NCBI GenBank assembly: GCA_030267565.1
Contig: BRXU01000016.1
Coordinates: forward strand, 2,002,501 to 2,066,500
DNA length: 64,000 nucleotides
Source of the DNA: Pleodorina starrii
Lineage: Eukaryota > Chlorophyta > Chlorophyceae > Chlamydomonadales > Volvocaceae
Reading direction: 5' to 3'
Positions 9,225 through 49,529 of this stretch are shown piece by piece (position 1 is the first letter of the stretch; each line of letters starts with the position of its first letter). The notes beneath the pieces are model-generated. The model did no database searches. It was not told the origin of the DNA and saw only the letters and a program-made list of their open reading frames with translations. The position numbers and the translations under genes are program-made.

Positions 9225-9229
9225 TTACA
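9225..9229 (-). terminator. Candidate polyadenylation signal for the HECT gene
   Basis: TGTAA on the minus strand about 40 nt after the HECT stop codon. The copy at 9022-9026, about 240 nt downstream, is at a more usual distance for an algal 3' untranslated region and may be the real one. Confidence 0.35.
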
Positions 9230-9268: not shown

Positions 9269-12200
9269 TCAGGAGAGCGCCATGTACCCCTGCCCGATGG
9301 TGATGGCGCAGAGGATCTTCTCGCGCAGCTCCTCGCGCGACACGTACCGCGGTAAGTCCAGCTGCCGGAAGCAGGTGTGGGCCGCCGGCAGGCGGGCTGT
9401 TGTGTCGTTTGGATCGTACATGCGCTCTACAGCCACCATGTGGAACGCAGGGTCCATGGAGCCAAAACCCTCCGCCGGCATGCCGTCCGAGCCCGACCAG
9501 AACTGCAGCAGCTGGCGGCGCTGCACGTCGTCGAACGACTCGGCCACGTCCCAGAACCACGAAATAATCTCCTCCTTGCCTGTGTAGCCGTCCTCGTACC
9601 TGCGGAACACGGAAGCAACCAGAAACCAGGTTAGCTGTGTGCAAAAGGATCGCAAAGCGAAGCCGTCGTGGCAAAGATAAGAAAACCCGTAAGCCAGGCA
9701 TATGTTTTGCGAGTACGGCCGCTACGGGTTTCAGCAGGGATGCAAGAGCTCCGTAGCACAAGACACTCACTTGCAGTGCCGCTTCAGGTCCTGGATGTCA
9801 ATGCGCTGCTCCCCGCAGACCAGCAGCTGCATCTCCAGGCTGCTGAAGGCGTACTTGTCGAGCAGGTCGCGAGGGATGAGGGAGTGGAAGGCGTCGATGA
9901 GCGCACTCATCTGGGCCTCCACGGCGCCGACGAGCATCTTGTGCGCCTTGAGCAACACGTACTCGCGCTTCGTGGTGTTGGTGACCTTGATGTGCTTGCC
10001 GCCGGGCTTCAGCGGAATGGCGTTGGCGCACACGTCGTCGTTGTCGCAGCACGCGAAGGGCGACGCGGCCGCGGCGGTCGTCGACGCTGTCAGCGTGCTG
10101 GCGTTGGTGGGCGTCGACGCCTCCCCATCGGGCGCAGAGGTTGACGCTGCGGGGATGGGTCGTGACAGTGCGAGGGCAGGAATGTTGGCAGGAATACGGG
10201 ACAGGGGCGTTTTGCACGCGAGTCATCAGCTGCACGGAGGCGCAAGAAACAAAACGGGCCGCCACCCGCCACCAGGTGATCAGGCACGAACGCGGCGAGG
10301 TCGGCGCTTCCCACGCAGCCAATGTCTTGCATTCGCAACAAAGAAGGGCGCACACCTTGCGTCGGAATGCTGGCGCCTGCTCCCGCGAGCGCCGACGCCA
10401 CCTGCGTGGCGCTGCCAGCGGCCGCGTTGGGGTGCTGGAACGCCCACACGAAGTTCTCGAAGATGAGGCCGTCAATGTCCATGGACAGGATGGACATGAG
10501 CGACCGGAACTCCGTGGGGTCCAGCTGCTGCAGGTCCACCAAGCTCAGAGGGTTGCCCAGCAGCAGCTTCCAGAACGGCTCGCACAGCGGCAGGTTGAGC
10601 GTGATGGGGCCCAGCTCCTTGCCGCGCGCTGCGCTCTCCAGGATGGCCTTGGCCATGAACAGCCCCACGAAGGCAAACTTCTTGAGGTGCGCGGGCGAGG
10701 ACGAGGTGGGCGTAACGTACAGCTGGTTGCGCTGCGGCCCGGCAGTGTAGAAAAGCTCCGGCGAGCCACGGGAGATGGCCGAGGAGAGTGTGGAGAACCA
10801 CTCGCGGGTCACGCCGCCGCTGTCCATGCCGGCTTCCCCAATGAAGGTCACCTTGAGCGGCTGGCGCCACACGGCGTGGCCCTTGCCGGCGAAAATGGCA
10901 ACCGAGTCCTTGAAGCAGCGGTTGCGCCGGATCTGAGGGCAGCGCGGGTGACAAGGGACGCAAGGTTGGATGGTTCCAAGGTGGGTTGCTAGTTCCACCA
11001 CCCGCGGCGTATATACCACATTTGTAGTGACTCCACCCAGTACAACAAACGGTCCGGTGAATGGCATTACTGGCGTCGTCCGATAACGTGCCATAATTGT
11101 TCGAACGGGTATGTGCGGTGCCCGCCTGGACAATCATTGACCCGGAGCACGGGCTTCCTGCGTTGAATGTAGATTACTTCAAGCATAGAAACGCAGGGAC
11201 ACCACGCTCGCCCGAGGATTGAACCCACCTCGAGCTTGTGTACTGGCCCGTCCGCCGCCAGCTTCGCGACCTCCTGCAAAAACACCTTGCGCCGCATCCG
11301 GAAGTCCTGCCGCACCCACCGCCGGTGCACCGCGTCCAGCGCACCGCCGCTGGCGGGACCAGGCCCAGCCATTGGCCGCGGTTGCAACGGTAGCATCAGC
11401 ATCTCCTCGACCTGCTCCCAGCTCAGCGTCGCCGCGGAGCCCAGCGACACAAGCCGCGTGCCCAGCTCCTCCAGCGCCGGTAGCACCTCCGCCTCCAGGG
11501 AGGCCACGCCGCCCGGCGCCGTGCATCGCAGCGCCAGCGTTGCGAAGCTCTCCGCCCAGGCCGCCATGTCGGGCGTGTCCGGCAGCCGCGGCACGAGGTT
11601 CCGGAGCGTGCCGGATCCGAGCGCCTCACGCACCGCCGACAGCAGCCCCAGCGGGCCTTGCTCCGTCAGCAGCTGCAGCAGCACGACGCCGAAGGCGTAG
11701 AAGCTCGTTGGCGTGGAGGCGTCCGGCGCGGAGAAGAGCACCGCCGGGTCCGTGTAGGCCATGTCGCAGTGCAGCGGTGTGGGCGGGATTCCCACCGTGC
11801 TGGAGCTGAGCGCGGCCGCGGACGCGTAGCTGCCCCCCATTCCAACAAGCAGGCTTCCACCACCGTCGCCCAGTGGCCCCAAGGCTGCTTCTAGTTGGTT
11901 CAGCAGCACCGGCAGCATGCTGAGTTTGCACTGTTGCGCGTCCACCTGCACGTTTGCCGGGGACACCAGCGAGCGCAGGGCGTGCGGCGAAAGCAGCAGC
12001 ACGCCAGGCTGCTGTTGCTGCTGGGCCGCCGCTACTGAAACGCCGAGCGAGTTCGGCTCCCCTTGAGAGGACGGGCCCGCGCCCACGGCGTCGTCGCGCA
12101 GCCAGACCCCGGGCATCGCGGCCTGGTCCGCCCCTGCGGCAGCGGCTGGCCGCAAGTCCTGCAGGAACGCCAGCGCCTTGCAGATGTCCGAGCCCACCCG

Positions 12201-15200
12201 CACCACTTGCTGCCAGCTCAACAGGCCGCGCTCCAACCGCGTATGCAGCGACTCCTCCCCGAACGCCTCCTCGACCACCCACAGCACCTGGTGCAGCAGT
12301 TGCTGCTGCAGCTGGCGCTCCGACTGCGGCGCGCTGAGGCCCAGCGCCCTGCTGCTGCTCGGCTCCTCCAGCGCCAAAGCTGGCAGCGAAGGAGGCTTGA
12401 GCGGCGATGGGCTGCGCAGCCCCCCGCTGTGCGCGTGGGTGGGTCGCTGCGGCGTGGCAGCGCGTGAGGTCGAGGCGGATACCGGGGCTGATGACGGATC
12501 GGAGAAGGCGTCGTCCTCCGCCCACGCGATCGCGCTGGTCGTCGCTTGCTGGATGCAGACTCCCAGCACGGCCGTGATGTTCGGGTGCGAGATGCAGTAC
12601 CTGCTGTATGCCCGCCGCAGCTCCAGATAGGAGACGGACTGGCTGACGGGGACCTTCCAGACGCGGACCTGTGCCGGGTTACATTTGTCGAAGAGGCAGA
12701 GCCGGCGGTATCCACGATTAAGAGCATGTGCCTTCACCGCCAACGAGCAGAAACAGCATGAACGACCTTATCACTGAATGCCGAGTAGCTTCCATGAAGG
12801 ACCGGGTATGCAAGTCGTTGCTATGAGCGGCAGAGTGTTGAGGGGGCCTTGATCCCGTGTTCGCACGCACCTTGACGCCCTTGAAGGTGCCCATGAAGAC
12901 CTCGCGACCCTCCACCGTAATGGGCGCACTGCCGCCCACCATCATCGCCTCCACCTGCTCCACAGTGAACGACTGCACTGTTGACACGCTGTCCAGCAGG
13001 TCGTCAAAGGTGGTCTGCGGCATGGACACGTGCACACCGCCGCCACCATCCATGGCGAGGGGCACGCTGGCCGCGTCCAAGTCGTCGTCGTCGTAGTCAT
13101 CGGTAGCCTGCGTGTGGTGAAAGCACCGCCAGCGCAAAACGGGAACAGCTCCCGTTAAGCCGTTAGGCACACTGCCGGACTATCGCTCGATTTTAGCAGT
13201 CAACAACAAGCAGAACCGGGCACCAGAAAGTTCAGCTGCAGCCGACAGGTAAGGACCGCACCGCGATGGCGGGCATCGCACAACAATCCCGAAACCAACC
13301 TGGTCGTGCTCGTCATCCGCGCCCGAATGGGCATGCGAGTGCGGGTGTGCGTTGGTGGCGTTCGGTGCGGTGCTCGTAGCCGACGATTTGGACCGGCTGG
13401 AGCGCAAGGAGCTGGGGACGGCAAACGCGCTCGCCATGCCGCGTTCCCGCTCGTCCCAGTTGCTGTCACTGGACGCATTCGCGCCGCTCGCGTCGGGGCG
13501 CCGGCTGCGCGGCGAAGGCTTCCCGCTCGCAGCGGCCACGATGCCCGCCGCCGCTCGCCGGCTCTTGTCCTTCATGACCATGCGGACGTCGTCCACCCCG
13601 GACAGCCGCAATGCCGAGCCGCCCATGGGCGACCGCGGCGGGTGCTGCACCACCGACGGGTGCAGCCGCACGGGCGAGCTGACCATGACGGGCGACCGAA
13701 GCGCAGACCCGAACACGCCGGATCCCATGGAAGGCATCGGTGCAGCCACCACCAAGTTGGGAAGCCCCGAGAGGCAGTCCAGCTGTGACGCGTTAGAAGC
13801 CGTGCCGACAAGCCCTGTCCCTGCCGATGCCGCTGTTCCGCCGCCAGCGGCGCTGAGCGCAAGGATGTTGTTGCGCGCTACGACGCCCTCCAGCTCGCCT
13901 GCAAAGGAGCAATCGCACCGAGCCAGCGCCAATGCATTCAGTCATGGGCCGCGACAAGCCAAAAGCACGCTGCCGACATGCGTAACGTAATGAAGCGTGT
14001 GAATTGCATCCTCCTCCGGACAGGTGCTTGAGCATCCCATGCAGGCGGTCCGGACCACTCATCGTCCTCCGGGAAATACCATGACCACACCCAGCACCCC
14101 GTGCGCACCAATGCGCTGCATGGCGGCGCTGACGCGCTGCTGCATCTCCGCAGCTTCGAAGGAGCGGATGGCCGCCATTTCGGCGCGCGCCGCCTCGATG
14201 CCGCGCCGCCGCTCGCGCTCCTTTATCCGGCTGATGGCCTCCTGCACCTCCCATGGTGTCGGATCCTCCAGCTCGCCGAAGTCCCCGGCAACCTGCGCGC
14301 GCGCAACCCACCGGCCCCGCAGGACTCGTTAGCACAGTCAGCGCAAGTGGGTAAAGCTGCGGACTGCTCCCATGCCAAAGTGAGGAGGACACTGGTAAGG
14401 GTTTCACGCCGCGCACCGCACTACACAGGTCACGGATATGCGCGCAGTGCGATACAGCCCCAGCAGCCCGCTTACGTGAGTGATGACCTCGCGCTCGAAG
14501 TCGTGCGGGTTGGCGGAGCGGGTCACGAGTAGCGCCTCCTCCTCAATGACGACCACCATGCGGCCGCCAGGCTTGAGGAGCGACAGGAAAGTCGGCAGGT
14601 CCTCCTCGCTCAGGCTGGCGTCGCAGTAGATTGCGTCGTAGGTGGTGCCGTCCGTGCACTCCGGGATGAGCACGTTGCTGAGGCTCAGCTCAATTGCCGA
14701 GACGCACCTACGTGGTTGGCAAACACATGGAGGTCAGCCGCGACCTCACACGGTGTATGGTCTAAGCATGGTGCGGTACAAAAATCGTCACATTTGCGGT
14801 TTTCCTTCGAACACTTCAATGACAACATGCATGAGTTTCTGTGACGAGTGGCCACGGTTATGAAGGGGACAAGTGACTTACTTGGCCGGGCTGCACCCCA
14901 AGGTGGTGACGGCGATGCTCGACCCAGGTGCGCGGTCCAGCACAGCCAGGCGGTCGCGCAGCTGCTTCATGTTGCTGCGAGCCGCCTCCAGGCGCGACGA
15001 CACGCATTCAATGCCGTGCACAGTGCCTGCAGCGCAGTGTCGTGGTCGTTTGGGGGCATGCCTATCGACAAAAACTCCAGCACAAGTAGGCTTAGGGCCC
15101 TTTCGTTGAATAGTTCCCGCGCAAGCATGCCGTGCTCCCTTCAGCAAGTAAGGTTAAGGACCTGGCCCACATAATTGGACAACGGTCTAACAGGTGGATC

Positions 15201-18200
15201 AGTCAGCTTCACAGGACCAGCCAGATAGCTCACCACGCTCGCCGACGAGGCAGGCGGCCAGCGCCGTCACGTAGCCCGTGCCACAGCCAACGTCCAGGAA
15301 GGCTGTCGGGTTGCTGTTGCTCGAGCTGAGCGCCAGCTTCTCCAGCGCACTCGCCGCGAAGCTGGGCGGCGGCAGGGTCATGGTCGAACCGTCGGACATC
15401 CGCACCGTCACCTTCTGGTCCCTGGGGCAGTCATACCAAGGGCGGAGCCGTGCGCGCAGACCGTTGCGTTCGGAGGTGCTAGATCAAGAGGGTAACCGAC
15501 CGGGGACTGCGAGTCGGCGCCGGTCGGGATGCAGACATTTCCATCGCTTACGGACGTCAGCCGCACAAGCTCAGCAGTTAGCTCGAGTGTTTTGCAGGGT
15601 TGTGGATGGCTTTCATTGTCGGGGAAACCGATCGCACCTGAACGCCTCGCGATGCCGGTCCTTCGGCACAAAGAGGTCACGCGGAATGACAAGCATGGCG
15701 GCCTCCAGGCGCGGAGGCACGACGCAGCCCTTGGCCTTGAGGATGTTGACCAGCTCCTCGTTCGTGTGCTCTGATTTGCCGATGGGCCCCGGCGCCAGGG
15801 AGGCCTGCAAGGCGGCAAAGACCCAGGCCAGTGGTAAGCTTTGCCGACGAGCATGAAGGCGGTTGCTGCGCGGCAATTACTGCGGGCTGCCTCGACTCAC
15901 ACAACCGGGAAACGCGATAGGAGATCTTGGTCAATGCTCATCCACGCAGCATCCCTCGTATTGCTCATACACGCAGCAAGCACCCCGCTTGCTTTCCAGC
16001 AGGCGATTCAACGCGCGTGTCGTATATCCTCCAGCTCCCCAAAGCCCATCTAGACCCATCCTGCATGCTTTCACAACACGCTATGCAAACGGAACCTGGC
16101 CTCATAAACCTACCGATTGCCGTGAGCTGGTGATCGTCACGGCCGCGTGGAGCGGCCCTTTCACGCCCGCGATGGTTCCGATGGCACGACCGCCGTGCGA
16201 AAATTTCAGCGTGCCCTCCTGCAGTATGCAAGCGCAGCGGATGGTGCACACGGTTTGGAGATACATGCGGGACGGCTCTTTGGTGAACGTGAAGCTTGCA
16301 AAATTGTCCACTGAAGCGAGAGACAAGAGACGCCATAAAGCACGCGCCAGCACAACGCACCTTCAAGTCCAGGGTAAGCGTCACCTCGCACTTGCCCTCA
16401 ACGAAGGTGAAGATGGGGGCCGCCTTGCCCTTGTGCTTGGCCGTGGAGCCCCTGCCAGATATTGACACGAGGGGAACAACCATGAACGGGTACTTGGGCG
16501 TCTTGCACCAGCAACCCCATACTAGCACACGCTTCGAAGTGTTCGACGACGTGGATTGAGGCCGCTTCCCTGGCATGGAAAGGCGTAAGAACTCTTCGTG
16601 CTACGCTCAACGTCTGCCAGTGGCGCCGTACGCTCGCCTTCGACTTTCCCAGCCTATGATGCTTGCAGCAGCATCTCCCGCCTTTTCTAATCGAAATGTA
16701 CGTCCTTCGACCTGGGTTGCTTTCGTTGCCGTTCTGGCCGCTCCTCACACTCCTCCCGGAATTGATCAAACAGTGGGTATGCTGGACAGGGCCCATCAAT
16801 GCTTTGCAGGTGGACAAGGACCAGCAGCTGATTGGCGTCGCCGTGACCGCCGACTCGCTGCTTCGCCAACCCTTCTGAGCAACACATTCATGCGCCCATC
16901 TGGGAAGAAGTTCGGCCGAGGTAAGCTGAGCGCAATCCGTGTTCGGGGTTGCCGGGCACGGCCTCAACTGCCCTCGCCGCACTGCTCACGTACCTCCTCG
17001 CCCCTCACAGGGAGAGCGTCAAAAAGAGCGTGGCCGCCCTTGCCAAGAGCGTGGCTGGCCGAAAACGCAAAGTGTGAGCGCCAGTGCCAATTGATTTTCA
17101 GCGGCTCCCATCCCGCGAATCCCACCGCCCACTCTAAACCGCACGGACGATACGCCTACCCCGATACGAACGCCACAGCCCCGCGCCGCCCCTCACCGGA
17201 CCGGCTTGGCCACCATTGACCAGTTCGACAGGTTGGTGACGTGGAAGTAGCGGCCGTTGACGTAGAAATAGCCGAAGTAGTCTAGGCCGATGCCGCAATG
17301 CTCCTCGCCCAGCGAGCGGTTCAGCTCCATGGTCGGCGGCGCCACGCCCACCAGGAAGTTGGCTGGCTGCTGGCAAGGCAGCTGCTGCTCCAGCCTGCGT
17401 TCGCAACGGGTCCGCAATCAAGCTCCCTCAAGGAAGCAGGACAAAGAGCCCAGGGCTGCTGCAGAATGTGGTTCGCTCAGTGCGCGGAGCTATCCCGCTA
17501 CGTTCGGGGTAGGATTCTGGGCCAGGGTTGTGCTTTTTAAGGCAAGGTTTGTGCTTTTTATCAGCCATGATCCTCTTATCAGCCATGATCCTCAATGCAC
17601 GCAGCACATGCTCCAAAAAGCTCTGCTGGCCTGCTGGCCTCAAAAAGCGCAGGTGCTGCAACCAGGGGAGCTCTCGAATACTGCCCTACTGCCCCTCCTC
17701 ACCTGACAATCCAGCTGTGCACCTCCGTCTTGCAGTACTCCCGCAGCCCCATGACAGTCGCCTGGCCGCTTGTCTCCTCCACCGCGCCTGTGGCGGGGCT
17801 CACGACGGGCCGCAGCGTGCACGACTGGCCGTCCGCGGACAGAAGCGCGTGCTTCGAGGCCTTTTGTGGGTTCCAGCGCAGGCTATGCGCCAGGTCAACG
17901 AACATGGAGCTCGAATGCAGCGTGATCGAGTCCATGATGTTGTCCAGCGACACGTACGGCCACACCTCGTCTGTTGGGATCAGTGAAGGTGTTGACAGGG
18001 CGGCGACATGCAAGTCAGCGAGACTGGGGCTCCTCTAGACACAAACTTGCTCGCGAACACTGAAGACAACAGCAAGCAACTTCAAGAGCAACTTCAAGCG
18101 TCGGTTGCGCGTCGGTTACTAGCCACGGGTGCGATGTGGGGTTTTCGCCGCAGCGTCTCGGGTTTGGCGCCAGGGTGCTCCCCGTCACACGATGAGCTCT

Positions 18201-21200
18201 CCTGGCAGCCCGAATGCACACCCCAAGGCAAGGCGCACCCGGCAGCCCGTCGCCTGCCCCCTGCAGCATGTTGTTCTTCAGGAACAGGATGTGGCGCTGG
18301 TCCATGTCGAGCTGCACGCTGATCAGGTCGCCCTCGGCGTACGGCTCCGCACACCGCGTAATCAGCTTGCCGGCGACGCGGATTGTGCCATTCGATAGGT
18401 AATACGTCCGGTGCTTCATCTCCTGCAAGCAGCATGCGAGCGGCCATTGGGAGTAGTAAGCCGACCCGCTTTCCGATTAACGCCTGAGAAGGGGTGCACA
18501 GATCACGCGACCAAACGCAAGGTGATTCCGGCGGTCTTCAGGTTGAACTAGCGCGCACCTGCGGGTCGGCGTTCAGGTCGTGCCCGCCCACGGTGACACC
18601 AATGAACAGGTTGGAGTCCTCGACGTGGTTGATGTACACGTTCCAGCTGTGCTGGCCGGACGCCAGGCATAGCGTGCCCAGGACGGTGGCGTAATCGCCG
18701 CCTTCGTTGGACATCTTGGTCACCGTGAGCCCATCGATCACGTTGAGGTCCTTGCCCGCACGCGCGTCGTCCCACCTGATATGCACGTGCCCCGGCAAGC
18801 GTAATGCGGCATCGCGAGGGAGGGGCATTAGATGCAGCTATTAAACCCAATACGAAACGACTCAGTGCCCTGGCTTTCTGGCGCTTGCATACGTGGATAA
18901 AAAAACACGGGCGTTGCAGGCGTGTGTGGCTCTCTGAAGTCGCCGCAAGACCCTGTTTGCAAATCCTCGTTGTATATCCCGCATCCCGCATGGTAACTCC
19001 CGCAGCTCTCGACACCAGCCGTGGGTGCCGCCCCGCCTCACCTGAGCTCTCCCGTGTACTCGCCCGTGTTCAGGACCGTAGGCCGATTCTGGATGGTCAC
19101 CTTGCTCTCCTCGCTGCCCATCGTTACTGCCGCCACGAGCGGCCCACGCACGCCCTCGAAGGCCGTGCCCAGGGGAGTCCCGTTGCGCGCGAACCGGATG
19201 GTGCCCGCCGCCAGGCTAACCGACACGGTCAACACGTCGCCATTCTTGAATGACTGCGTGAACTCCTGCTCGCGCCCGTCGTACCGCTTGTCGCCATCCG
19301 AATGCAGCGCCCAGCCGCAGCCCGAGTCGCCCACACAGCGTGCGGGATCCATGTTGGGCGGGGCAACGCCCACCCACACGCCGTCCGGACCCAGCGTGTC
19401 CAGGATAACGTGGAACTCGTGCATGCCGGTGCCGCTGTACTGGATCGTCCCGCGCACTGTGGACGGGCCATTGGAGGTCGACTTCGTGGCTGTCAGGCAG
19501 TTGGACGACAGCTCAATGTCCGGGCCCCGGTGCTGCGTGTCCCACTCCATGTCCGCGAGGTGCCGCGGGATCCGGTTGAGCAGCAGACTGTAGCTGCCCA
19601 AGAGGGTGATCTGGTCGCCCTCGCTGTCACACGACACAAAGGGGTACAGCCGCCCGCGAATGCCGCGCGCCCGGCCCTGCTCCACGCCGTTGCGGAAGAA
19701 GATGATCTCGCCCTGCGGGATCGAGCAAATAGGCTCGGGTCAACACCATCGGCGCAAGGAAACGCTGCGCTACTTTTGGAAGACGGTTCAGGGCGGTTTT
19801 GAAGACTTCGCAGTGGTCATAAGCACGGGATAGAACGCGCACAAAGCATGGCAGGTTGGGATTTGGCCGTCAACCACCGCTGACGCGGCGCGCCCGTCCT
19901 TCCCACGACTGGTGCCGTTTGTCGCACCTGGTCGGCGTCCAGCACACAGGCCACGGTGTCGCCCTTCTGGAAGTTTGCGGCGTTCGTAGCCACGCGGCGG
20001 CCGCCCACGCGGATGACGCCATTGGAGAGGTAGTACGTCCGGTCGCGCAGGTCCTATTCCGGAGGTTGCATGCATTGCCGGAGGAGCAGCACGGATACAG
20101 GTGAGCAATGTCATACCCCTGCCTCACTCAGCGGGGGTCAACGCATGAACGGCTCCTTCCTTGGGCGTTTCGCAGTGCAGCTACGACGACTGGCAAGGAC
20201 ACGTGAAGATGTCCCCATATCATGTTCCCTCTGCATGTGGTGCAGCGCGCACTATTGCTACGTGTAACATCATGCACCCCGGGAGTGAGGTTTTTCCATA
20301 GGGCTGCAATGACATTTCCCCCGTGTTCTGCACGCTTCGCGGCGTAGCCCGCCTCCGGTTGCCCGACATGCTGGCGTACCTGCGGGTCCTGGTCCAGGGG
20401 CATGCAGCCGCGGCACACGCCGATGAAGATCGAGTCCGGCTCGGAAAGGTTGTTGACCTTGATGAGCCACAAGTGCACGCCGGAAATGAAGCCTGGAACA
20501 GGAAGCAGCGAAAGGGCACTTTCACTTCAACGCCGTGCTCGGAATTGCATACCCCAGCCGCGCGCCCTGGCCGTGGACTTCCCCTGACCAAACACATGCC
20601 CAAAAGTGCAAAATTGGTGGACTTCCCGCGACCGACACGCGCTCGTCAACCGCAAACCCCTGCTTGTGCTCGTGCAGCGAACACTTCCAAGCGGCACGGC
20701 AAAGCTTCAGCACGCACCCTGGTTTGCTAGGACCGTCGAGTAGTCGCCATACACCTCGGAAACCTTCGACACACTGTGCCCGTTTAGGCGCAAGTCGCCA
20801 GAGCAGTTCTCGCTGTTCCAGCGCAGGTCCAGCTGGCGGAGCTTGGTGAGGTTCACCAAGCCGGCCTGGCAGTGGAGGCCAGGCGCCTGCACGAACGCTA
20901 TGGCTGGCGACACCGGCGCGGACACGCCCGTGAACGCGGACACGATCAGGTGGCCGTTGCGGAAGAACCGCACGTAGCCGGCGTTCAGGTCCAAGTCCAC
21001 CGTAATGAAGCAGTGAGACGAACTCGATTCGGCCATGTGCGCCAACCCATCGCGCGGTGGCGGCGGCGCGTTCAGGGGCGACGGGTTCGCGTTGTTGGCT
21101 GCATTGGTGCCTGTCGGCAGGCACGGCGACGGCAGGGGCACACGCGTCGGGGAAAGCAAGGCGCCCGGCACACACTTTACTTTCTGGGTCTTTCCTATAC

Positions 21201-23255
21201 TATAGGTTTGCGCGTACTGATCAGGCTATGAGCCTGGCTCAACTAGCAGCCCCTTGCTGCAAAGCGCTTTAAGGCACACGTTCGTGAACCCCAACGGATT
21301 TGTCTTTTGCTCACTAAGCTTCCCTTGGCCTGTTCAGCCGCGTTGGTGCGCCGCTATTGCATCGCGCGCACCTGGAAGTCGCATCCACGCGCCCCATTTG
21401 CCTTGCGGCCGCGGCACAGACTTGGTGGCGTCCACGCCGCTAGCGCCCGCAGCTGCTGCCTGCGCCGAGCCAGCGTCCGCCGCGCTGGTCCCTGCAGCTG
21501 CGCTTGCTGCTGCCGCTGCTGACGTTGAAGGCCCCGCAACTCCCCCGCTCGCCGTCCGCACGCCTCCGACGCCGCCAGCGGCCCCCATGGCCGACGACAG
21601 CCCTACGACTGAGCCACCAGCAGCGCCGACGGCGGGGTTGCCGCCAGACGTTAGCGCACGCAGCGGCCCCCCGACGTTCGCTAGGATGTTGCTGCCGTTC
21701 GAGGTGGGCGCGTCAAGCGACGAGGTCACGATGCCCACGTAGATGTGGGTCGGATGCGGCCCGTAGTTGTCCAGCTGCACCGTCCAGCGATGCCGCCCAC
21801 TCGTGAAGACCGTGGAACCGTGGAACTCGACGCTGGTACCGCAGCCCTGGGCGCTGAGGTTAACGGGCGTGGTAGCGGTCGTGTGGTACTTGACGCACGT
21901 GTCCAGCTCGCACAGCTGCGTCTCGGGAGCGCCGTTGGGAGTGGGGCTATACCAGGTGTACAGCGGGCTGGGCGTCGTGGCCTCGTGCAGGGATACCGAC
22001 ATGCCGGGGAGCACCGTCACAAAGGGATACATCTGCAGCGAGGAGATGATGCTGCATGGCAGCGAGGACTGCAGCAGGACCGCCTCATTCAGCTTCAATG
22101 TGGCCATAATGACGGGCTGCTTGTCTTCCCTGGGCGCCAGCTCCAGGCTGAGCACGTCGCCGGGCTCCACCGTCCGGTGCGTGCTTGTCGAGCTGATCAT
22201 GTACAGAGGCTTCCGCGACACGCTGTCCACTAAAGCACCGGCCACGCTGGGCAGCTTGGTGGCCGTTGACTGCGGTGCATTTGCTGCCATTTGCGCCCGG
22301 GCTGCCTTGAGTTTGCTCTCAGGTGACTTGACTATCCCCGCAGGCGACGCGGGGCCCGCTGCTGGTGATGCAGCGGTCGCGGCGGCAGCAGCCCCACCGG
22401 CTGCAGTGGTGCCCGTTGTCGCCGGGCTGGGTGGTGAGGCAGTGCCAGCCTGTGAGCCTCCGGACGAGCCGGGGCCGGCTGCCGAGGGTGGTGGAGACGC
22501 GGGTGCTGCAGCGGACGAAGGCGCCGGCGCGGCTGGTGAAGGCGCGGAAGACGCCGCTCCCGGGTCAGCGGCTGCGGCTGAAGGGCCTCCGGGGGCCGTG
22601 CTGGTGCTGGCAGAAGCCTGCGCTGCCTGCAGCGGTGGCGCCTGGAGCGCCGGGCAAGCACGTGTAGACGCCAGGCCCCAGGTGACATTCTCGACCGGGC
22701 CGTAGTGAAGGTCGTCCACGCGAAACTTCACGGTGATGCCGCCACAGTACGCAACGTACTTCATCACCTCCAGCTCCAATACCGCGTACGTATCGCGTGA
22801 TTGGCTCGTACGCTGCGGTTGGTGAGCCTTCTGGCACTCCAGCTGCAACGCTTGCGACGACAATGCACGCGACCAGCCCGGAATGAGTGCTGTAGACTTG
22901 TGCACTGCAGCCCGTTGCTGTGGCTGCTGAGCCGGCTGTGCTTGCTGCTGCTGGGCCGGAGCACCGGGTTGTTGAGGTGCTGCTGGCACGGCCGCTGTGA
23001 CAGCGGCTGCTATCGAAGTCGCTGGTGGAGCAGTCATGTTTGCTGCTGCCGTTGAAGACGCTGGAGTGACCTGCAAGACAGCCAAAACCCTGTGAGCAAC
23101 ATAGAAAGCAAAAAATGCTTCAGGTGAGCAGGTCTTGCCTCCAGAGACAGAGCTGCCGGCCGCGTTGACGTTGCGATGTTGGCAGGACCGGCGCTGGCAA
23201 TTCCCGGGAGCATCGTCGTCACGCGGACATTTTCAGCCGTAGGGACAGGTTGCAT
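9269..23255 (-). CDS. Multidomain HECT E3 ubiquitin ligase with SPRY modules, PCMT-like domain and pseudokinase
   Basis: The model has 23 exons that all join in phase, giving about 2,891 residues. Exon bounds from the 5' end are 23255-23139, 23070-21372, 21110-20718, 20492-20380, 20053-19928, 19712-19042, 18775-18559, 18422-18239, 17970-17703, 17394-17197, 16451-16361, 16218-16114, 15804-15638, 15421-15234, 15026-14882, 14707-14476, 14292-14091, 13898-13300, 13107-12871, 12668-11229, 10932-10356, 10146-9771 and 9599-9269. Residues ~80-1394 hold about six SPRY-like modules (binding). Residues ~1395-1640 are PCMT-like, with AdoMet motif FLDVGCGTGYVTALAA and LKPGGRMVVVIEEE. Residues ~1950-2380 are kinase-like but lack HRD and DFG. 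Residues ~2450-2891 are HECT, with HTCFRQLDLP and catalytic Cys 2858 placed 34 residues from the end. It should transfer ubiquitin through that cysteine. Intron 1 is GC-AG. The first ATG could be preceded by another exon. Splitting it into several genes is unlikely because no stop or start interrupts the chain. Confidence 0.88.
16810..17077 (+). pseudogene. Broken partial copy of CURT1 (exons 6 and 7) inside an intron of the HECT gene
   Basis: Two blocks separated by about 130 nt repeat the last two CURT1 exons with their acceptors. At 16810 the sequence reads QLIGVAVTA, identical to CURT1 exon 6. A deletion of about ten bases then destroys the YRYF segment and leads to a stop at 16876-16878, and the donor is lost. 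At 17011-17077 an acceptor (CCTCACAG) and ESVKKSV..KSV match exon 7 with changes at its end. The earlier exons are not convincingly present. It lies on the plus strand within the 17196-16452 intron of the minus-strand HECT gene. It looks like a decayed segmental duplicate (introns kept), not a processed copy. Confidence 0.85.
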
Positions 23256-34700: not shown

Positions 34701-37700
34701 ACAGACCGGGGGGAAAGAGGGGCAGGGAAGGAAGGACCGCACGTGTTGGAAATGCAGGCTGAACATCGGGCCGTAGGCGGGCGCCGGCGAGGCGAGGCGA
34801 GCGCGGGGCGGCACCTGTCGAGCGGGACAGTGTCCTTCGGCCAAAGGGCCCAAGGCCGAAAGTTGGGTTCACGCGAGGAACAAGAAACAAAGACGGGATG
34901 GCGACCAGGCGGGATGGCACGCGGCGCCGGCGCTACCGGCACTGTTAGCCTGCCCCGGGGGGCCTGCGCCGGGAGGCCCCGGCCGACATGCCTGCCGGGA
35001 GCCCGGGACCCGCTGCGGCACGCGCACGACAGCCCGTACACGTCGTACCTTGGTTCCTGAGCCCAGGTAGTAGGGCAGGTTGTCAAAGGTGGTGGTGAGG
35101 GCCTCCGGTCGGGTGAGTGCGGAGGCGGCGAGCTCCGACTTAAAGGCAGCCACCTGCGGGGCAGGAGGGATTGAGAAGGCGGGAGAGGGAGGTAGAGAAC
35201 AGGAGACGGTGTAAAGCGGCGGAAGGGAGTGAGAAGGCGAGAGGGCGTGTGCGTGTGAGTGCATGAGGACCGGGCAGTCGAAACAACCGCATCCCCCCCC
35301 GCAGTTCCGCAGCCATGCGGGCACACACCCGCATTCCCTTCCCTGCCCCTCCCTGCCCTTCCTAGCGCAGGCCCATCCCACCAGCTCCTGGCGCATCCGG
35401 GCTGCAGCAGCAGCGGCCCCCACGCCCCAACTCACAGCCGCAAGCCCCCCGCCCAACGCACCCACCCGCTTCCTCACGGGGTCGCTCAGCGGCTGCACCG
35501 GGACGCCAGTCGTCGTAGTCGGCTGCTGCTGCTGCTGCGGCGGCAGCGGCGGCTGCTGCGACCGCGGCGCCTGCGGCGCCGCCGGGGGCTGCTCGCGCGT
35601 TGCCTCCGTCGCCGCCTCTGGGGTTCCATCCATGACCACATCCGCGGGGACGGTCCCCTCTGCGCCCTCCTCCGCTCGCCCCCCGCCGGGCAGCATCACG
35701 GCCGCCGGCTCCGTCTCAACCACCGACGGCGCCTCCATCACCGTGTCAAGCCCCTCCTCCTCCGCCTCCTCCTCCTCCCCCTCCTCCTCCTCCTGCTCCC
35801 CCTCCTCCTCCCCCTCCTCCTCCTGCTCCCCCTCCGCTTCCTCCGCGCCCGCGTCCATCGCCACCGCCGCGTCAGCCGCCCCGTCGAGCGTCCTATCAAT
35901 GGTCATGGAAGCCGTCGCCGCCGCCACCGCCGCTGCATCCGCGTCGTATTGTGAAGCGACCATCTCTCCGCCCGCGCCACCGCCACCGCTGCCGTCCAGG
36001 CCGTCGCCGCTGCCCATGCCTCCTTCCCCACAGCCGTAGTGGGCAGCGGCGGTGGCCGCCGGGTGGGTACCACCGGCCTCGGCGGCGCCGACGGCGGTAG
36101 CAGCGCCAGTGGGCGCGATTAAAGCTGCCGCCGGCGCCGTCCCCTCCATGGCACCGCAAATGAAACCCGTGAAGAGTTCGCCAACGTAAGCCCCGGGGTG
36201 GGGGGCAAGGCCGGCCGCGAGGCCTCCAGGCGCGGCGCCGCCGCCGACGCCGTCCGCTCCGCTGCCTTCACCTCCGGAGGCGGCAGCGTCGGCATTGGCG
36301 GCTAACGCTGAAGTCGGACAAGCGGCGCCGCTGGCGGCGCCGGCGGCGCGAGTCCCAGCTAGCGGATGGTACGTATCCTCTCCCGTCGCCGCCGTTGCCG
36401 CCGCCAAAGGCAAGGACAGCACCTGGCCTGGAAGGCCCGGTGACGTCACCACCGCCGGCGGCAGCGAAGCTTCCGCCGAGGGCCCACACGCGGCCGCCTC
36501 CGCCACCGCCTCCGCCGAAAACCCTCCGGCCGCCGCGCCTTCCAGGACCTCCGGCCGCAGCTCCTCGCCGCGTGCTGCCCCCGCCCCAAGCAGGCCCAGG
36601 CCCAGGTCCCCTCCCACGTCAGCCGCTCTAGCCCGAAACCCTGCCCCTCCCGCTTGCGGCGGCACTGACGTGGCCGCCAGCACACCGCCGGCGGCCTCCA
36701 GCAGCGGCGCCCCCGGCGGCATCAACCCCTGGATCGCATCCTGGAGCATGGCCTCCAGCGCCACCATGTTGCCGGGGGACGCGCCGGCGCCGCCGCCGGC
36801 GCCATGCGGTCCCACCAACGACGCCGGCGCTGCCTCCGCCGCCTGCGCGGCGGCGGCGGCGGCAGCCTCTGCCGGCTGCAGATAGCTGACGGCCGCCTGG
36901 GCAAGGGCCCCGCCTACGTTTTGGTGGAACGCAGCGGCGTCACCGACGCCGCCGTCGCAACGGCCTGCATCCCGTTGCTGGAGCTGGTACGACGGCGACG
37001 GCAGCGGGGCCGCCAGCGGGCCGCCGGCCGAGCGTGCCTGCCACCGCAGGCCTGCTCGGAAGCCGCTTGGCGAGACGGGCGCGGAGGCCGACAAGCCGAC
37101 GGCCGGAGCCGCCGCCAGCGGCACCTGCCCCCGCAGCTCCTGCAGCCCCATGCCTGGGCCGGGCGCCGCGAGCGCGCCGTCGGCCCCGGCGCTGGGGGCG
37201 GCATCGGCCACTGTGGTGGCAGCACCCGCGGGCAACGGTGCTGGGATCCCTGGATCCGCGCCCGCGCCCGCGCCCGCGCCGGCCCGCTCTGCCGCCAACA
37301 GCTCCGCTAGGCGCGCGATGGTCCGCCAGCCGCGACCCCTGCCGCCTCCCGCCCGCGCCCTCGACGGTATCTGAGGACTCCAGGGCGCCTCTGTGCAGCG
37401 CGGCGGCGGCGGCGGCGGCGTCGTCGCCGTCGGCACCCGCACCGGCACCGCAGCTGCCGCTGCCGCCGCCGGCACCGGCGCCGGCCCTGCAGCTGCCGCT
37501 GCCGCCGCCGCTGCCGCCGCTGCCGCAGCAGCGGCGGCGTCCTGTTCGGCCGCCGGTCCATAGCTCTGGTCCGCGCCCATCAACAAGCCCCGCCACAGCT
37601 CCTCCAACTGACTGTCGTTCAGCTGGCTCTCAAACTCCGCCCATGCCGCCTCGCCAGCCTCGGTAGAGGCCAGCTGCTGTTGCCGTTGCGCCTGCGCCTG

Positions 37701-40700
37701 GTGCCGCTGCGGCTGCGACCGAGGCCTCGGCGCCGCCGCCACCGCCGCCGTCGGGGCCTGCCACGCCTCCCATCCCCCCGGCAGCTCCGGCCCCGGCACC
37801 GCCGTCCCCGCCGCCGCCGCCGCGGCAGCGGCGGCGGAAATCGACCGTCCCAGGCGCGCGAGCGCCGCCCAGGTGTTGCCTGCACCGGTGCGGCCACCGC
37901 GGACGCCAGTGGAAGCTGCCGCCGCCGCCGCCGCCGCCGCGCCTGCTGCCCCCTGCGGCGTGCGACGGACACAGGGCACACAGCCGAGGTACCATATGTT
38001 GGCGGGTGTGGCATCGACGGGTAGCGGCGGGGAGGGCATGAGCGGCAGGGGAGGGTTTGGGAGGGGCAGCGCAGGGCAAAGGGGGGCGGCCAGTGCGAAA
38101 GCGGTGCTGCGAAAGAGGAGGTTGCAGGCGGCGCTGCCCAGGCCGCTCGGCCCTGGACGGTGCCGACTCCAATGTGACCCCAAAAACCGGCGCCCCAAGG
38201 CGTATAAAGCATACCCCGCACTTCATGCGCGGGACGAGCGTGTCGCGCAGCGCAACGCAACGCAGGAAACGAGAACGCACCTGCTGCTGATGGCAGCGAC
38301 GGGGGTTGTTGTGTTGGGGTTGTTGTTGGTGGTGGTGGTAGTGCTGCTGCTGCTGCTGCTGCGTCCGCTGCGGCAGCGGGGGCACAGGCCCCAGGCCCGC
38401 CACCGCTGCGCGGAAGCGCTTGAGTCGCTGCGCGGCAGGATCAGCTTCGGACGCCACGTCTGGAGGGCGCGTAGGCATCAGGCGTAGGGGGTCATCGGGA
38501 GTGCGTCAAACAGTGCCCGTATGGTGGTGGTAGACAGGGTCAGGGTCCTGTTGCGCGCCCTCCTCCTTACCCAACATCCGCGGGGCGGCGAAACAAAGGC
38601 GCGCGCGCGTGTGCAAAAAACGGAACCCCTTGCCCCAAGACGTGTAAGAGCCGAACACTCCGAGCGTAACGACATTATGCAACACAGGCATGCCTAATGC
38701 GCGTATGAGGCCAGTCGCCGAGCTCCCGAGCGCCATACCTTGCAGTCCCGGCGGGCCAAACGCCCCCGCGGCCGCCGCCGCCGTCGCGGCTGGCGCCGCA
38801 GCGGCCAGCGCCGCCACCTCACGGTGCCCGCCAGCCGTCGCCGATTGCTGCATGAGGCTCACGTAATCCGCTTGCGTATGCGGAGGTTGCGGAGCTGGGA
38901 GGAAGCCGTCGCCTGCTTGGGCCGCGCCTGCTGCGCAGATGGCTCCAGGGGGTGCCGCTGTGGGTGCTGGCAGGGGATTGGGAGTGAAGGGCGACAGTGG
39001 ATATATCGGTTCAGCTGCAAGTTTAAGAAGACGGGCGGGGTGCTGGCTGGCGACGAGGCTCGGTGCGGCCAGCGGCAGGACGACGGCCGCGAGTGCGACG
39101 GCCGTCTGCCGGTAACACCTGAGAGAGGGACGGCCTTACGCGGCACCCGGGCAGAACCCGAGGGAGAGCGACAGGCGCATTTTGCTGTGCCTCCACCACA
39201 CACACGTGACACCGCCAAGCGACGTGCAGCGCCTGACAACTTGACGTGAAGCCGCAAACGGGAGATTAGGCGGGCGCGGCACGGCAGGCAACGTGCGGCC
39301 GGCAGGCAACTCTCAGTATGAGCAGGTGCCCGCAAGCGCCCCGACGCCCATCCAACAGTGCTGGGGGGCGGCGGCACCGCCGCCAGCCACCCTGTCCGCG
39401 CTGCCGCTGCCCCAGGCATCCGCGCCTCGAAATGTCGCCTCCTCAGCCTCCCACACCGTCGCAGAAGCCCCTCACTCCGTCGGGGCTCAGAACCGACAGA
39501 GGACCAGGACTGCCTCACCGCCCGCCCACGGCATTACCTGCCCCTCCATTGCCAGCCGGCTGCTCCTGGCCCCACCAAGGCGCAGGCGTGTGCTCGGCGC
39601 CTGCTGCCGCCGCCGTCACTGCCACCGTCGCCCGCTGCCAGAGCTCGGGCGGCGTGCCCGGGGGAGGCGCTCCCATCATTGCCCTACGGGAAAGGCAGTC
39701 GGCAGTTGGCACGGACACACGACACGGACACGGACACGGGGCAGTCGACACCGGGTACTGCCGTCCACTCATCTATGTTTTGTCCTAGACGCGCAGAGCG
39801 TATGGCTGCGCACCTTAGCACATGCGGAGGCATGCCGGACAGCCGGCCCTGCGGGGGCCAGCCCTCCGCGCCCTGCCCCTGGATCTGTTGCTGCGCATGC
39901 TGCTGCTGCTGTGGGTGCTGTGGGTGCTGCTGCTGTTGTGGGTACTGCTGCTGCTGCTGTTGTGGGTGCTGCTGCTCTTGTGGGAACTGCTGCTGCTGTG
40001 GGTGCTGCTGCTGCTGTGGGTACTGCTGCTGCTGCTGCTGTTGTGGGTGCTGCTGCTGTTGTGGGTACTGCTGCTGCTGCTGCTGCTGTGGGTACTGCTG
40101 CTGCTGCTGTTGTGGGTGCTGCTGCTGCTGCTGTGGGTACTGCTGCTGCTGCTGTGGTTGCTGCTGCTGTTGTGGGTACTGCTGCTGCTGCTGCTGTGGC
40201 TGCTGCTGCTGTTGTGGGTACTGCTGCTGCTGTTGCGGGTGCTGCTGTTGTTGTGGGTACTGGTAGTACTGCCTCTGAGTTGGCATCCCAGCGACAGGGC
40301 CCGGCGGCCGCCGGGCCGGCTGGCCACCCGCTGCCGCGAGGAACGCGTCCTGGGGAGCGGCCCCGCTCCTGCCTGCGCCCAGGCTAGCCCGCCGCAGCAG
40401 CGATTCCAGGAAGGCAGCCCGCTGCACGCTCCGCATCCAATCCCCACAGCTCTGATCAACGCCGGCGCCGGCGGCTGCCGCAGCGGTCCCCGCTGGCACG
40501 GCCCCCGCCGCCGCAGCAGCAGCAGCAGCTGCGCCGGACGGCCCAGCCGCCGGAGAAGGCCCTGCCGCCGCCCCACCGGCGGCGGCGGCGGCGGCAGCGG
40601 CGCCAACGCGCTCGTCGTAGGCCGCCAGGTCTGCGGGCATGAAGAGGAACAGGGCGCAGCCGCGCCGCTCCGGTACGCTGGATGCAGCGCTGAAGCTGGG

Positions 40701-47000: not shown

Positions 47001-49529
47001 CGACATCCTCTTTGCAAAGGACATCGACGGCTTGTGCCTTCACGTAGAACGAAGAATGATCTCAACTAAGCCCGACCCACATCGTCCACCCTGGGCGCAA
47101 ACTTCTGCCGAGACCAGCACCCATGGCACTCAATATCCCACCCACCTGACTCGCACGTGGTCCTCCAGGTTGCGCACCAGTCGCCTGACACGGCTGCTCA
47201 CCCAGCCGTCCCACAGCACGAGGTCCTGCTCGGTGTCCGCCGACACCTCGATCTGAAAGGCGGGGGGCAGGACGTCAGTGCATAACAGCGTTGAAGGTTC
47301 AGATGCAAGCCAAGAGTCGCGTGCTGTCCATGACCAGGGGCCGGTTTGCTAGCGTTGCGAAGCCCTCCAGTCGACATGCCATGGCTGCGGCTGCACTGCT
47401 CTCCCGGCCATCAGAAATGACTCTCAATTGACCCCCGACCCACATCGTCCACTACGCCCGTCCGAACCCGACGCCGCTTGTCTTTTGGGTTGGTCCGGCG
47501 GCGACGCAGCCACAGTCCTGGGTATTAATCAGGTAACAGGTCTCCTGGGAAGTATTGCCGGTACCGGGTTCGCTGGCGTCGCCTCCGTCCCATCGCTGTG
47601 GTGTCTCCTCTAGCGACCTCCCCAAACTGACACACGCCACGAAAGACCGTAAGCCCCCCGCACCTGGATATAGAAGGTGTGCTGCGTGAAGAATGGCACC
47701 GGCGTAAACAGCCGCCCCCAGTCGATGGGCTGCCCGCCGCGGCAGCGCAGGAACGACGTGCACACCTCCGCCGCCGCGCCAAACTCGCCCGTCATGACCT
47801 CCAGCGTGCTGCGCTGCACATTGTACAGCGAGTTCATGGCGGGGTAAGCGGGCGTGATGACGGGCATGAGCGCCAGGCTGTCGCGCGTGCCGGGCCGCGG
47901 GTCCCACACCGGCAGGCCCAGGCTGTGGTCCTCCGGCACGCGCAGGTGGATGGCGCGCGGCCAGGGCCAGGCCTTGAGCAGGATGAAGAACTTGAGCAGC
48001 ACGGTGCTCGCCTCGGCGCGCGGGTAGAGCTGGCAGATCTTGGCGACCATGATGGCGAGGTTGACGCCGCCGAGGTAGCCGGTGACGTTGGAGGAGATGC
48101 CGCGCAGCGACGCCCAGTGCTTGACGGCGCGCAGCGCCAGCCGGAAGACGTCCTGGTTGGGCACCAGGCGCAGCAGCGTGTCGGTGACGCGGCAGCCGTT
48201 GAGCGAGCGCACCGTGGCCTCGTCGCAGCCGCGCAGCACAGCGTGGTTGGACAGGTCGAGCTGCTCGGGCAGGGTGGTCATGGCGAGCGCGGCGTACAGG
48301 ATGTCGATCTGGACGCCCTTGTACTGCAGCGGAGGAGGAGGGGGCGCGGAGGGTGTATATGTGCAATGCGAACTTGGTACTGGAGGGAGGGGGGTGGAGG
48401 GATTAGGGAAGTTGGGTTGGGATTGAAGACGTGAAGGGAAAAGGGCGCACTGAGCGGGCGAAAACACGAGAGGATGCGAGACGGAAGGTCTGAACGGGAT
48501 GTGGTCATCTTTGTCGAGGCCGATTAATGCCACAGAAGATATGAAACGGGAGGTGGACTGCTGCTCCGCAGGGCAGGTTTCGCAAGGGCTCAGCTGGCGC
48601 GCATGTTCGCCCCCAACGTGAGCCCGACGTGAGCCGCTCCTGGCCGCCCTGCCCTCCCCTGGTCTCGTCTCGCGTACCTTGATGCCGATCATGGGTACGA
48701 ATGCATCCGGCACCGGCTGGATGTCTGTGATGTCCGGAGTTTGCTGGCAGGGACACGGGGAGGGGGGCCATGCGGTGTGGGTGAATGCGTAAGAATGGCG
48801 AATCGCAGCGAAATAACCGACGGAGGCGACGGTGGGGAGCTGTGGATGGGCTGTCAGGCCAGAGGCCAAGGGGAGCCGTGCAATGCAGGCGATGGGATTG
48901 GTGCACGTGGGGTTATCCACGTATGGGCCGGAGCCCGTGAACGGTGACGTATCCGGGGGGGGCCGCACGACACCGCGTGCTGAGCCCCAGAGCGCCACTC
49001 ACAGACAGCATGTACTGCAGGCAGTGCTTCTCACTGCCGAAGAAATCCGTGTCGCGCAGCACGTAGCGAGGGCCAACCACCAGCGTATCCATATCCGTTC
49101 CTGCGCCCGACAGCACAAAATTATCAGGACCTTTCCAAGCTGCAACGCAACGCCAGAAGCTCCAGGACTTGCCTGGCCCATGGACCCCAAGCCGGTATGA
49201 ACCAAACGTGTAGACGTGCGCTCGAGCATCCTCCACGTTCAGGTTTTTCTTGCGGCTAACTACCTTCACCCAAGTTTGGACCAGCTGGTAGAACAGCCCA
49301 AGGACCTCCTCGCGGAGAATTGCCTCGTCCAAGGATTCATAGAGACCGCTCGCCCGCAAAAACTGCACTCAACGAGAAAACGTTTTTTGCTATGCCGCAG
49401 TGTACATAGACGGGGAATTACCAAGCGCACCTCTTCTAGCTCTTTGCTATGCCTCTTGTCTTCGGCTGTCGGTGGTGCATCGTTCAGCGGACGTAGAAGG
49501 TACACATCCTCTAGGGATGCGCCTGCCAT
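44003..49529 (-). CDS. PAP: Nuclear poly(A) polymerase, C-terminal end unresolved
   Basis: Adds the poly(A) tail to pre-mRNA from ATP in the nucleus. Ten exons: 49529-49431, 49362-49173, 49100-49003, 48743-48678, 48323-47664, 47252-47151, 46809-46615, 46301-46113, 45960-45793 and 44329-44003. The N-terminus KELEE-FLRASGLYE..REEVLG is the family start. FGSYRLGVHGPGTDMDTL is the nucleotidyltransferase signature with two metal-binding Asp, and the third Asp is in VQIDIL. LRAVKHWA..RGI and GYLGGVNLAIMVAKICQLYP are the central domain. AWPWP, WDPRPGTRD and MPVITPAYPAMNS are typical PAP motifs. TAWAAKRPGMELRV and QLPSWLL are the RNA-binding domain. KRAAPEE and PPAKRTR look like a nuclear signal. Intron 2 is GC-AG (CCAG/GCAAGT). 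The exon at 44003 ends at a GTGAGT donor, so at least one more exon exists. An in-frame TGA just upstream supports the start at 49529. The donor at 47150 (GTCAGG) is weak. Confidence 0.93.
44330..45792. other. Long intron of the poly(A) polymerase gene
   Basis: About 1.46 kb between two in-phase PAP exons. It is rich in ACACA and GCACA words and AT-richer than its surroundings. Open frames of 263 and 222 codons overlap on the minus strand. They are Cys/Val/Leu-rich products of the CA-rich composition, with no recognisable domain, so I treat them as noncoding. Confidence 0.6.
48909..48950. repeat. Short dispersed repeat, second copy
   Basis: Copy of the 30051-30096 repeat, in an intron of the poly(A) polymerase gene. 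Confidence 0.6.

Follow-up and report, generated by a model that had tools for sequence, protein, structure and literature searches.

Introduction

In animals, the PCMT-like proteins PCMTD1 and PCMTD2 are connected through a SOCS box to a cullin-5 ligase; PCMTD2 is a CUL5 receptor. In combination with PCMTD2, CUL5 raised the ubiquitylation of domains from IL2RB and CD247, the two receptor chains that are named as PCMTD2 clients in T cells (PMC10798966, sections available). The available sections of two sources report that PCMTD1 shows no isoaspartyl methyltransferase activity (PMC10798966, PMC11514484). SPRY and HECT domains are already known to occur together in the giant HERC/HERC1-like ligases, namely human HERC1 and HERC2 and Dictyostelium HectPH1 (PMC5666861, PMC6063350, sections available). 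Here we describe a minus-strand gene in a 64,000-nucleotide stretch of the green alga Pleodorina starrii (contig BRXU01000016.1, positions 2,002,501 to 2,066,500; this whole stretch is called the window), which is predicted to encode a HECT-type ubiquitin ligase (E3) of 2885 amino acids (aa).

In one reading frame the SPRY array is followed by a PCMT-like domain, a conserved stretch and a linker, and then by a pseudokinase-like domain and the HECT domain with its catalytic Cys2852; this order is conserved in the family. Judged from sequence comparison, we consider it reasonably probable that the protein is a giant chlorophycean HECT E3 that uses its SPRY array and PCMTD-like pseudo-enzyme to bind the client.

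Comparison with the large HERCs showed that the algal protein has no RCC1-like domain match (the RCC1 family was absent from a Pfam scan of the chain at E <= 1) and that its HECT domain is nearest to those of HUWE1/TOM1, whereas PCMT-like and pseudokinase parts are unmentioned for the HERCs and HectPH1 in the available sections of PMC5666861 and PMC6063350. PCMTD1 and PCMTD2 likewise tie a PCMT-like fold to ubiquitylation, and PCMTD1 shares IYC and IE(D/E)-L-(I/V)-R(T/S) stretches with the algal protein by eye. However, the PCMTD proteins use a SOCS box and a cullin ligase (PMC10798966, sections available) while the algal protein carries a HECT domain in the same chain, and at the motif-serine site PCMTD1 reads LSAP where the algal protein reads LPPP. 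A general Pfam scan, run on the chain in two halves and without a dedicated SOCS-box test, listed no SOCS-box family. Like PIMT/PCMT1, the algal domain lies above the Pfam PCMT cut-off and has motif I for S-adenosylmethionine (SAM); unlike them, it has lost the serine of the ISAPH/ISQPY motif, misses the NCBIfam PIMT cut-off and lies within a much longer chain. HUWE1, TOM1 and UPL1 (plant subfamily V) have the nearest HECT domains by sequence, but their N-termini are unrelated, and no UBA or armadillo family was found in the Pfam scan of the algal chain. The RLK/Pelle-type pseudokinases RKS1, BIR2 and IRAK3 are among the best profile and fold matches of the kinase part, although the algal one is fused into an E3 and does not keep VAIK, HRD and DFG.

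Nine HECT genes are reported for Chlamydomonas reinhardtii, and the words SPRY, kinase and methyltransferase do not occur in the available main text of that survey (Marin 2013, PMC3712016). Other proteins with both SPRY and HECT were found in Triparma, in Pythium and in one more case (P0056, P0057, P0059); PCMT with HECT was found in this family alone among the matches, at limited sensitivity. The preliminary description of this DNA allowed that the architecture might be annotated in other green algae. Members do have database names (hypothetical protein, HECT-type E3 ubiquitin transferase, TOM1-like), but the architecture itself was undescribed among the matches listed, in titles and abstract openings from a coverage that mostly left out subscription journals.

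Gene model and conservation of the chain

The gene model was obtained by dynamic programming with codon preference and splice consensus. The automatic minus-strand gene had 22 exons and a score of 626.6. With the same program the region's plus strand reached 70.6, and none of 7 dinucleotide shuffles exceeded 7.0; this contrast is flattered because the codon table was trained on pieces of the same region, chosen by eye, and so favours the minus strand. In the hand correction, 19 of the 22 automatic exons were unchanged, exon 3 retained its donor alone and had its acceptor moved, the two N-terminal exons were replaced (start at 23255, GC donor in intron 1) and exon 12 was added. The final model is a prediction from the genomic sequence; it has 21 GT-AG introns and one GC-AG intron (intron 1), with fitting phases and a single terminal stop. 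The preliminary description had proposed 23 consecutive exons on one strand in one open frame over 14 kb and had named a few junction coordinates; its proposal is confirmed, and the rebuilt model agrees with it in coordinates and exon number.

Exon junctions were compared against 12 relatives. All 22 junctions were free of gaps against the annotated Volvox africanus protein (P0001); identity was 17 of 20 residues or more at 21 junctions and 12 of 20 at exon 21/22. The five junctions between 14476 and 10932, in the part of the gene where the preliminary description had asked for a check of the PCMT-to-linker and linker-to-HECT junctions, matched at 19, 20, 19, 20 and 20 of 20 residues. The weak point of the model lies at junctions 1/2, 2/3, 18/19 and 21/22, which are in low-complexity or poorly conserved sequence; 2/3, 18/19 and 21/22 have little support outside V. 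africanus and Chlamydomonas incerta, and 1/2 is supported by V. africanus alone.

TGTAA is the usual poly(A) signal of volvocine algae. On the minus strand it occurred 5 times between 24000 and 8000, against about 6.4 expected from base composition, and four of these lie after the stop codon (9229, which is 40 nucleotides on, 9026, 8837 and 8586). No TGTAA was found on the gene's strand between 14476 and 13300, where a poly(A) end would have separated the parts of the proposed gene. The sole intragenic copy on this strand is at 12683-12679 in intron 19, about 10 nucleotides upstream of the kinase exon's acceptor; a transcript polyadenylated early at this site would encode a SPRY-PCMT protein without HECT.

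The same chain was found in relatives. Among 63 matches, 10 were family relatives with 93 to 48% identity, and the other 53 have HECT in common by their listed Pfam domains. The ten comprise V. africanus (93% over the queried part, residues 600-2885), C. incerta (85%), Haematococcus, Dunaliella, Tetradesmus (two), Scenedesmus and three other proteins; SPRY and HECT were listed for 10 of 10 and PCMT for 9 of 10. In the sole relative with no listed PCMT (P0005) the sequence is gapped at the SAM motif, which may come from a faulty gene model, and in the Dunaliella model (P0010) the first half of the SPRY array is mostly missing, as is part of the HECT N-lobe. When large proteins were searched with the PCMT domain, the 12 proteins obtained, query included, were all of this family. 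In each of three protein searches, scoring was confined to the 8000 candidates with the most words in common and to set length limits, so that sensitivity for relatives outside Chlorophyceae was limited. The family is conserved at least in Volvocales and Sphaeropleales.

Several open reading frames (ORFs) cross the parts of the chain. P0064 and P0065 are single ORFs of 1516 and 1518 residues from SPRY-3 into HECT, which span the place of 16 of the gene's introns (an automatic count of 17 takes in the end of the ORF) and both end before the exon of the catalytic cysteine; at the place of intron 22, P0065 continues into unrelated sequence and P0064 stops, as unspliced ORFs do. A single ORF, P0088, connects the end of PCMT with the kinase-like part. 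The last SPRY module and PCMT stand in one ORF in P0071, P0074, P0085, P0094, P0106 and P0107, with an unrelated stretch between them, probably an unspliced intron, in P0071 and P0074. We infer that P0003 and P0006 are intron-free transcripts, because their coding sequences (7.2 and 7.1 kb) fill most of their 8.4- and 8.5-kb contigs. P0094, from a metagenome, is a divergent member with SPRY-5 and partial PCMT in its ORF and a valine for the motif serine, and may mark a deeper-branching lineage.

A joining of two or more adjoining genes by the prediction could appeal to the lack of an own-species transcript and to the TGTAA within intron 19. However, the chain is repeated in several separately annotated genomes, single ORFs lead from SPRY-3 to HECT and from PCMT to the kinase part, and P0003 and P0006 resemble intron-free transcripts, which makes such an artefact extremely improbable. 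Separate genes were likewise rejected as very unlikely on the basis of the shared chain, the gap-free junctions and the ORFs from SPRY-3 to HECT.

The PCMT-like domain

The PCMT-like domain passed the cut-off of PF01135 (72.1 against 20.3 bits) but missed that of the NCBIfam PIMT family TIGR00080 (71.5 against 159.05 bits). Five of five family members matched TIGR00080 at E <= 0.1, with the score against the cut-off given for the gene's own sequence alone. The domain is 65-96% identical in ten relatives, with high conservation of the REAFRDQK and SNVLIPECTDG stretches.

PIMT enzymes depend on the serine of the ISAPH/ISQPY motif for methyl transfer to isoaspartate. This serine was replaced in 46 of the 46 family sequences showing the column, by proline in 45 and by valine in 1; the count covers 60 family proteins including the gene's own, 14 of them without the column, and many are exon pieces that are not independent. 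Together with the missed NCBIfam cut-off, this led us to reject an ordinary PIMT enzyme. Of the 45 family rows that reach SAM motif I, 44 have it, and in the remaining row (P0100) the sequence breaks off within the motif.

Among PDB sequences, human PCMTD1 came first with the single sequence as query (43.7 bits; next match 35) and also with the family profile, where it reached 55.7 bits over profile positions 9-223, the next match 44.9 bits and human PCMT1 27.9 bits; this bears out the comparison with PCMTD1 drawn in the preliminary description. For most canonical PIMT chains the best profile stretch ended at position 108-148, while that of Plasmodium 2pbf (28.9 bits) reached 211. A canonical-type PIMT (P0114) preferred human PCMT1 (217.8 bits) over PCMTD1 (41.4 bits). 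In a tree, the family and PCMTD1 stood apart from every other PCMT with a support of 79.

A search with the PCMT profile among proteins of ordinary length gave 64 matches. Of these, 47 (P0066-P0112) are family pieces with 47-96% identity, mostly exon-sized and overlapping and therefore not independent. The other 17 have 26-32% identity, and their motif column holds serine in 7, glycine in 7, methionine in 2 and a gap in 1 (P0114 was read as serine by eye, its alignment being shifted); since 9 of the 17 have another residue, loss of the motif serine is not unique to the family.

The PCMT family search of the own genome gave 8 exon matches in four places (one on contig C19, two on C4, one on C7) and missed the PCMT exons of the gene itself, probably because they are too short. 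A close stand-alone PCMT relative in this genome was rejected, as the nearest (C7) had 43% identity over 49 residues and 38% over 52 and kept the motif serine (NISAPH). This separate PCMT-like gene (L013; C7:4179948-4183145, minus strand), nearest in the own genome by local match, has NISAPH and LDVGCGCG and is perhaps a lead to the origin of the fused domain.

The HECT, pseudokinase-like and SPRY parts

The HECT domain scored 229.8 bits against the PF00632 cut-off of 23.9 bits, and its nearest solved structures are those of HUWE1. Neither the catalytic stretch TARLPAAHTCFRQLDLPRY nor the six C-terminal residues (GYMALS) varied among the 11 aligned proteins. The gene is therefore predicted to encode a HECT-type E3 ubiquitin ligase. 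Gene model, relatives and Pfam agree with the earlier proposal of a HECT E3 with an unusual N-terminus in one polypeptide, and SPRY, PCMT and HECT were found in one spliced chain with 133, 72 and 230 bits. The proposed linkage of four domain types held at the Pfam level for these three; the pseudokinase assignment comes from profile and fold comparison and not from a Pfam cut-off.

In the family alignment of the kinase-like domain, no HRD or DFG motif was seen by eye, and the lysine of VAIK was arginine or glutamine in 6 of the 10 sequences showing the position. An active kinase was rejected on these motifs. Foldseek gave no match for the model of this part at E <= 0.001, the best being the BIR2 pseudokinase with E 0.26. 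A degenerate pseudokinase has moderate support.

When six SPRY segments were scanned one by one with PF00622 (cut-off 26.3 bits), three lay above the cut-off (29.7, 38.9 and 51.6 bits), while a scan of the whole chain found four stretches in its N-terminal half. SPRY-4 is the best conserved module, with 84-99% identity in 10 relatives, and the N-terminal region at aa 97-412 is conserved among the relatives that extend to it. The stretch that follows the PCMT domain (aa 1641-1705) is probably helical and is 60-100% identical in 10 relatives. Identity in the linker was 80% and 59% in the two closest relatives and 21-24% in the other eight.

Proposed mechanism and alternatives

We propose that a client protein would be bound by the SPRY array and the PCMT-like domain. 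This domain may still bind SAM and probably no longer methylates isoaspartate, and would therefore be a PCMTD1-like reader rather than a repair enzyme. The pseudokinase would position or gate the reader relative to the HECT domain, whose cysteine would accept ubiquitin from a ubiquitin-conjugating enzyme (E2) and hand it to the bound client. In effect, the protein would be a PCMTD-like receptor fused to its own ligase. The occurrence of the same chain in other algae of the class suggests that a repair-enzyme fold was recruited into a protein-disposal machine.

Several observations weigh against parts of this reading. PCMTD1 retains the serine that the algal family lost, the tree support is moderate and the PCMTD1 sequence in the tree is a fragment. 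The third glycine of motif I is alanine in 16 of 45 family rows, and by eye no GDG motif of PIMT was seen, a conserved NVLIPECTDG stretch standing instead; SAM binding is uncertain for these two reasons. The predicted structure of the kinase part had a mean predicted local distance difference test score (pLDDT) of 44.6, the match of SPRY-5 was weak (14.1 bits) and a segment scan of aa 97-412 gave no Pfam match.

The preliminary description suggested that the protein could recognize isoaspartyl (aged) or methylated proteins and ubiquitylate them. That the domain recognizes isoaspartyl proteins, and perhaps methylates them, before HECT ubiquitylates them would fit its Pfam score, its strong conservation and the implication of PCMTD1 in ageing or stress-related repair (PMC10798966, sections available). 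However, with the motif serine replaced throughout, the NCBIfam PIMT cut-off missed and PCMTD1 itself without isoaspartyl methyltransferase activity (PMC10798966, PMC11514484, sections available), the claim lacks support in its original form and we regard this reading as unlikely; recognition of aged proteins by the algal ligase is possible. A pseudo-methyltransferase might instead sense SAM and switch the HECT ligase, given that most family rows retain motif I and the motif serine is gone. A methyltransferase-fold SAM sensor for mTORC1 is known as SAMTOR. A Drosophila relative of CARNMT1 is described as a sensor of SAM (AdoMet) in the available sections of PMC11514484. The alanine in motif I and the NVLIPECTDG stretch in place of GDG speak against such a switch, which we hold to be no likelier than the recognition of isoaspartyl proteins. 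Slightly less likely still is an active methyltransferase with another substrate, in which methylation would be coupled to ubiquitylation: motif I is mostly kept and REAFRDQK and SNVLIPECTDG are highly conserved, but the motif serine is lost and no new catalytic residue was identified in the sequence, with no structure inspected.

A PCMTD-like reader fused to a HECT ligase, if true, would be a second, separate link between a PCMT fold and ubiquitylation, here within one polypeptide. Transformable algae would then allow a direct test of what PCMTD-type proteins read, be it damaged proteins, SAM or short peptide signals, and a HECT ligase with two dead-enzyme modules would be useful for learning how pseudo-enzymes steer ligases. 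A wider and rather doubtful idea is that PCMTD-like folds are ancient ubiquitin-ligase receptors, wired to cullins in animals and fused to HECT in chlorophycean algae, where a dead, perhaps SAM-binding methyltransferase and a pseudokinase would gate the ligase and link SAM status or protein damage to disposal.

Features of the gene and of the window

Table 1. Positions of the gene and its parts in the window
Feature	Position	Strand	Basis or remark
Whole gene, start to stop codon	9269..23255	-	splice-and-codon model with hand correction; 2885 aa, 23 exons
Exons 1-6	23255-23139, 23070-21372, 21110-20718, 20492-20380, 20053-19928, 19712-19042	-	
Exons 7-12	18775-18559, 18422-18239, 17970-17703, 17394-17197, 16451-16361, 16218-16114	-	
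Exons 13-18	15804-15638, 15421-15234, 15026-14882, 14707-14476, 14292-14109, 13898-13300	-	
Exons 19-23	13107-12871, 12668-11229, 10932-10356, 10146-9771, 9599-9269	-	
N-terminal conserved region, aa 97-412	21952..22899	-	SPRY-like by eye; interrupted by low-complexity insert
SPRY module 1, aa 424-696	20839..21918	-	PF00622 29.7 bits; split by low-complexity insert
SPRY module 2, aa 700-860	19581..20829	-	PF00622 38.9 bits
SPRY module 3, aa 870-1026	19083..19553	-	PF00622 51.6 bits; also in six-frame genome search
SPRY module 4, aa 1037-1196	17903..19052	-	PF00622 22.9 bits, alone below cut-off
SPRY module 5, aa 1204-1394, divergent	16114..17881	-	PF00622 14.1 bits, E 0.05
PCMT-like domain, aa 1400-1640	14287..15789	-	PF01135 72.1 bits; best PDB match human PCMTD1 9oma
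Pro1467 codon, site of canonical PIMT ISAPH/ISQPY Ser	15370..15372	-	alignment
SAM-binding motif I FLDVGCGTGY, aa 1491-1500	15271..15300	-	alignment
Conserved stretch after PCMT domain, aa 1641-1705, GDFGELEDPTPWEVQEA...	13882..14286	-	helical by eye
Low-complexity linker, aa 1706-1925	13030..13881	-	identity in relatives
Pseudokinase-like domain, aa 1930-2385	11448..13017	-	profile and fold comparison
HECT domain with N-terminal extension, aa 2424-2885	9272..11333	-	PF00632 229.8 bits
Catalytic Cys2852 codon (LPAAHTCFRQLDLPRY)	9371..9373	-	C-lobe HTCF motif, here AHTCF
First TGTAA 3' of stop codon, candidate poly(A) signal	9225..9229	-	usual volvocine signal

Elsewhere in the window, an ORF at 47613-48998 (minus strand) has the central (167.7 bits) and nucleotidyltransferase (80.9 bits) domains of poly(A) polymerase, and one at 61583-62926 (minus strand) has a methylenetetrahydrofolate reductase (MTHFR) stretch (26.2 bits) and is probably a piece of a spliced gene. 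An open frame of 1117 codons at 34872-38222 (minus strand) matched no Pfam family at E <= 0.01. It overlaps the 2-kb step with the highest GC content in the window (0.77, 36-38 kb) and may be low-complexity coding sequence or a chance effect of GC content. Satellite-like arrays at 59148-60512 are built on a 5-base unit (TACGC/ACGCG/ACGCT) with a higher unit of 112 bases (2 copies, 93% match).

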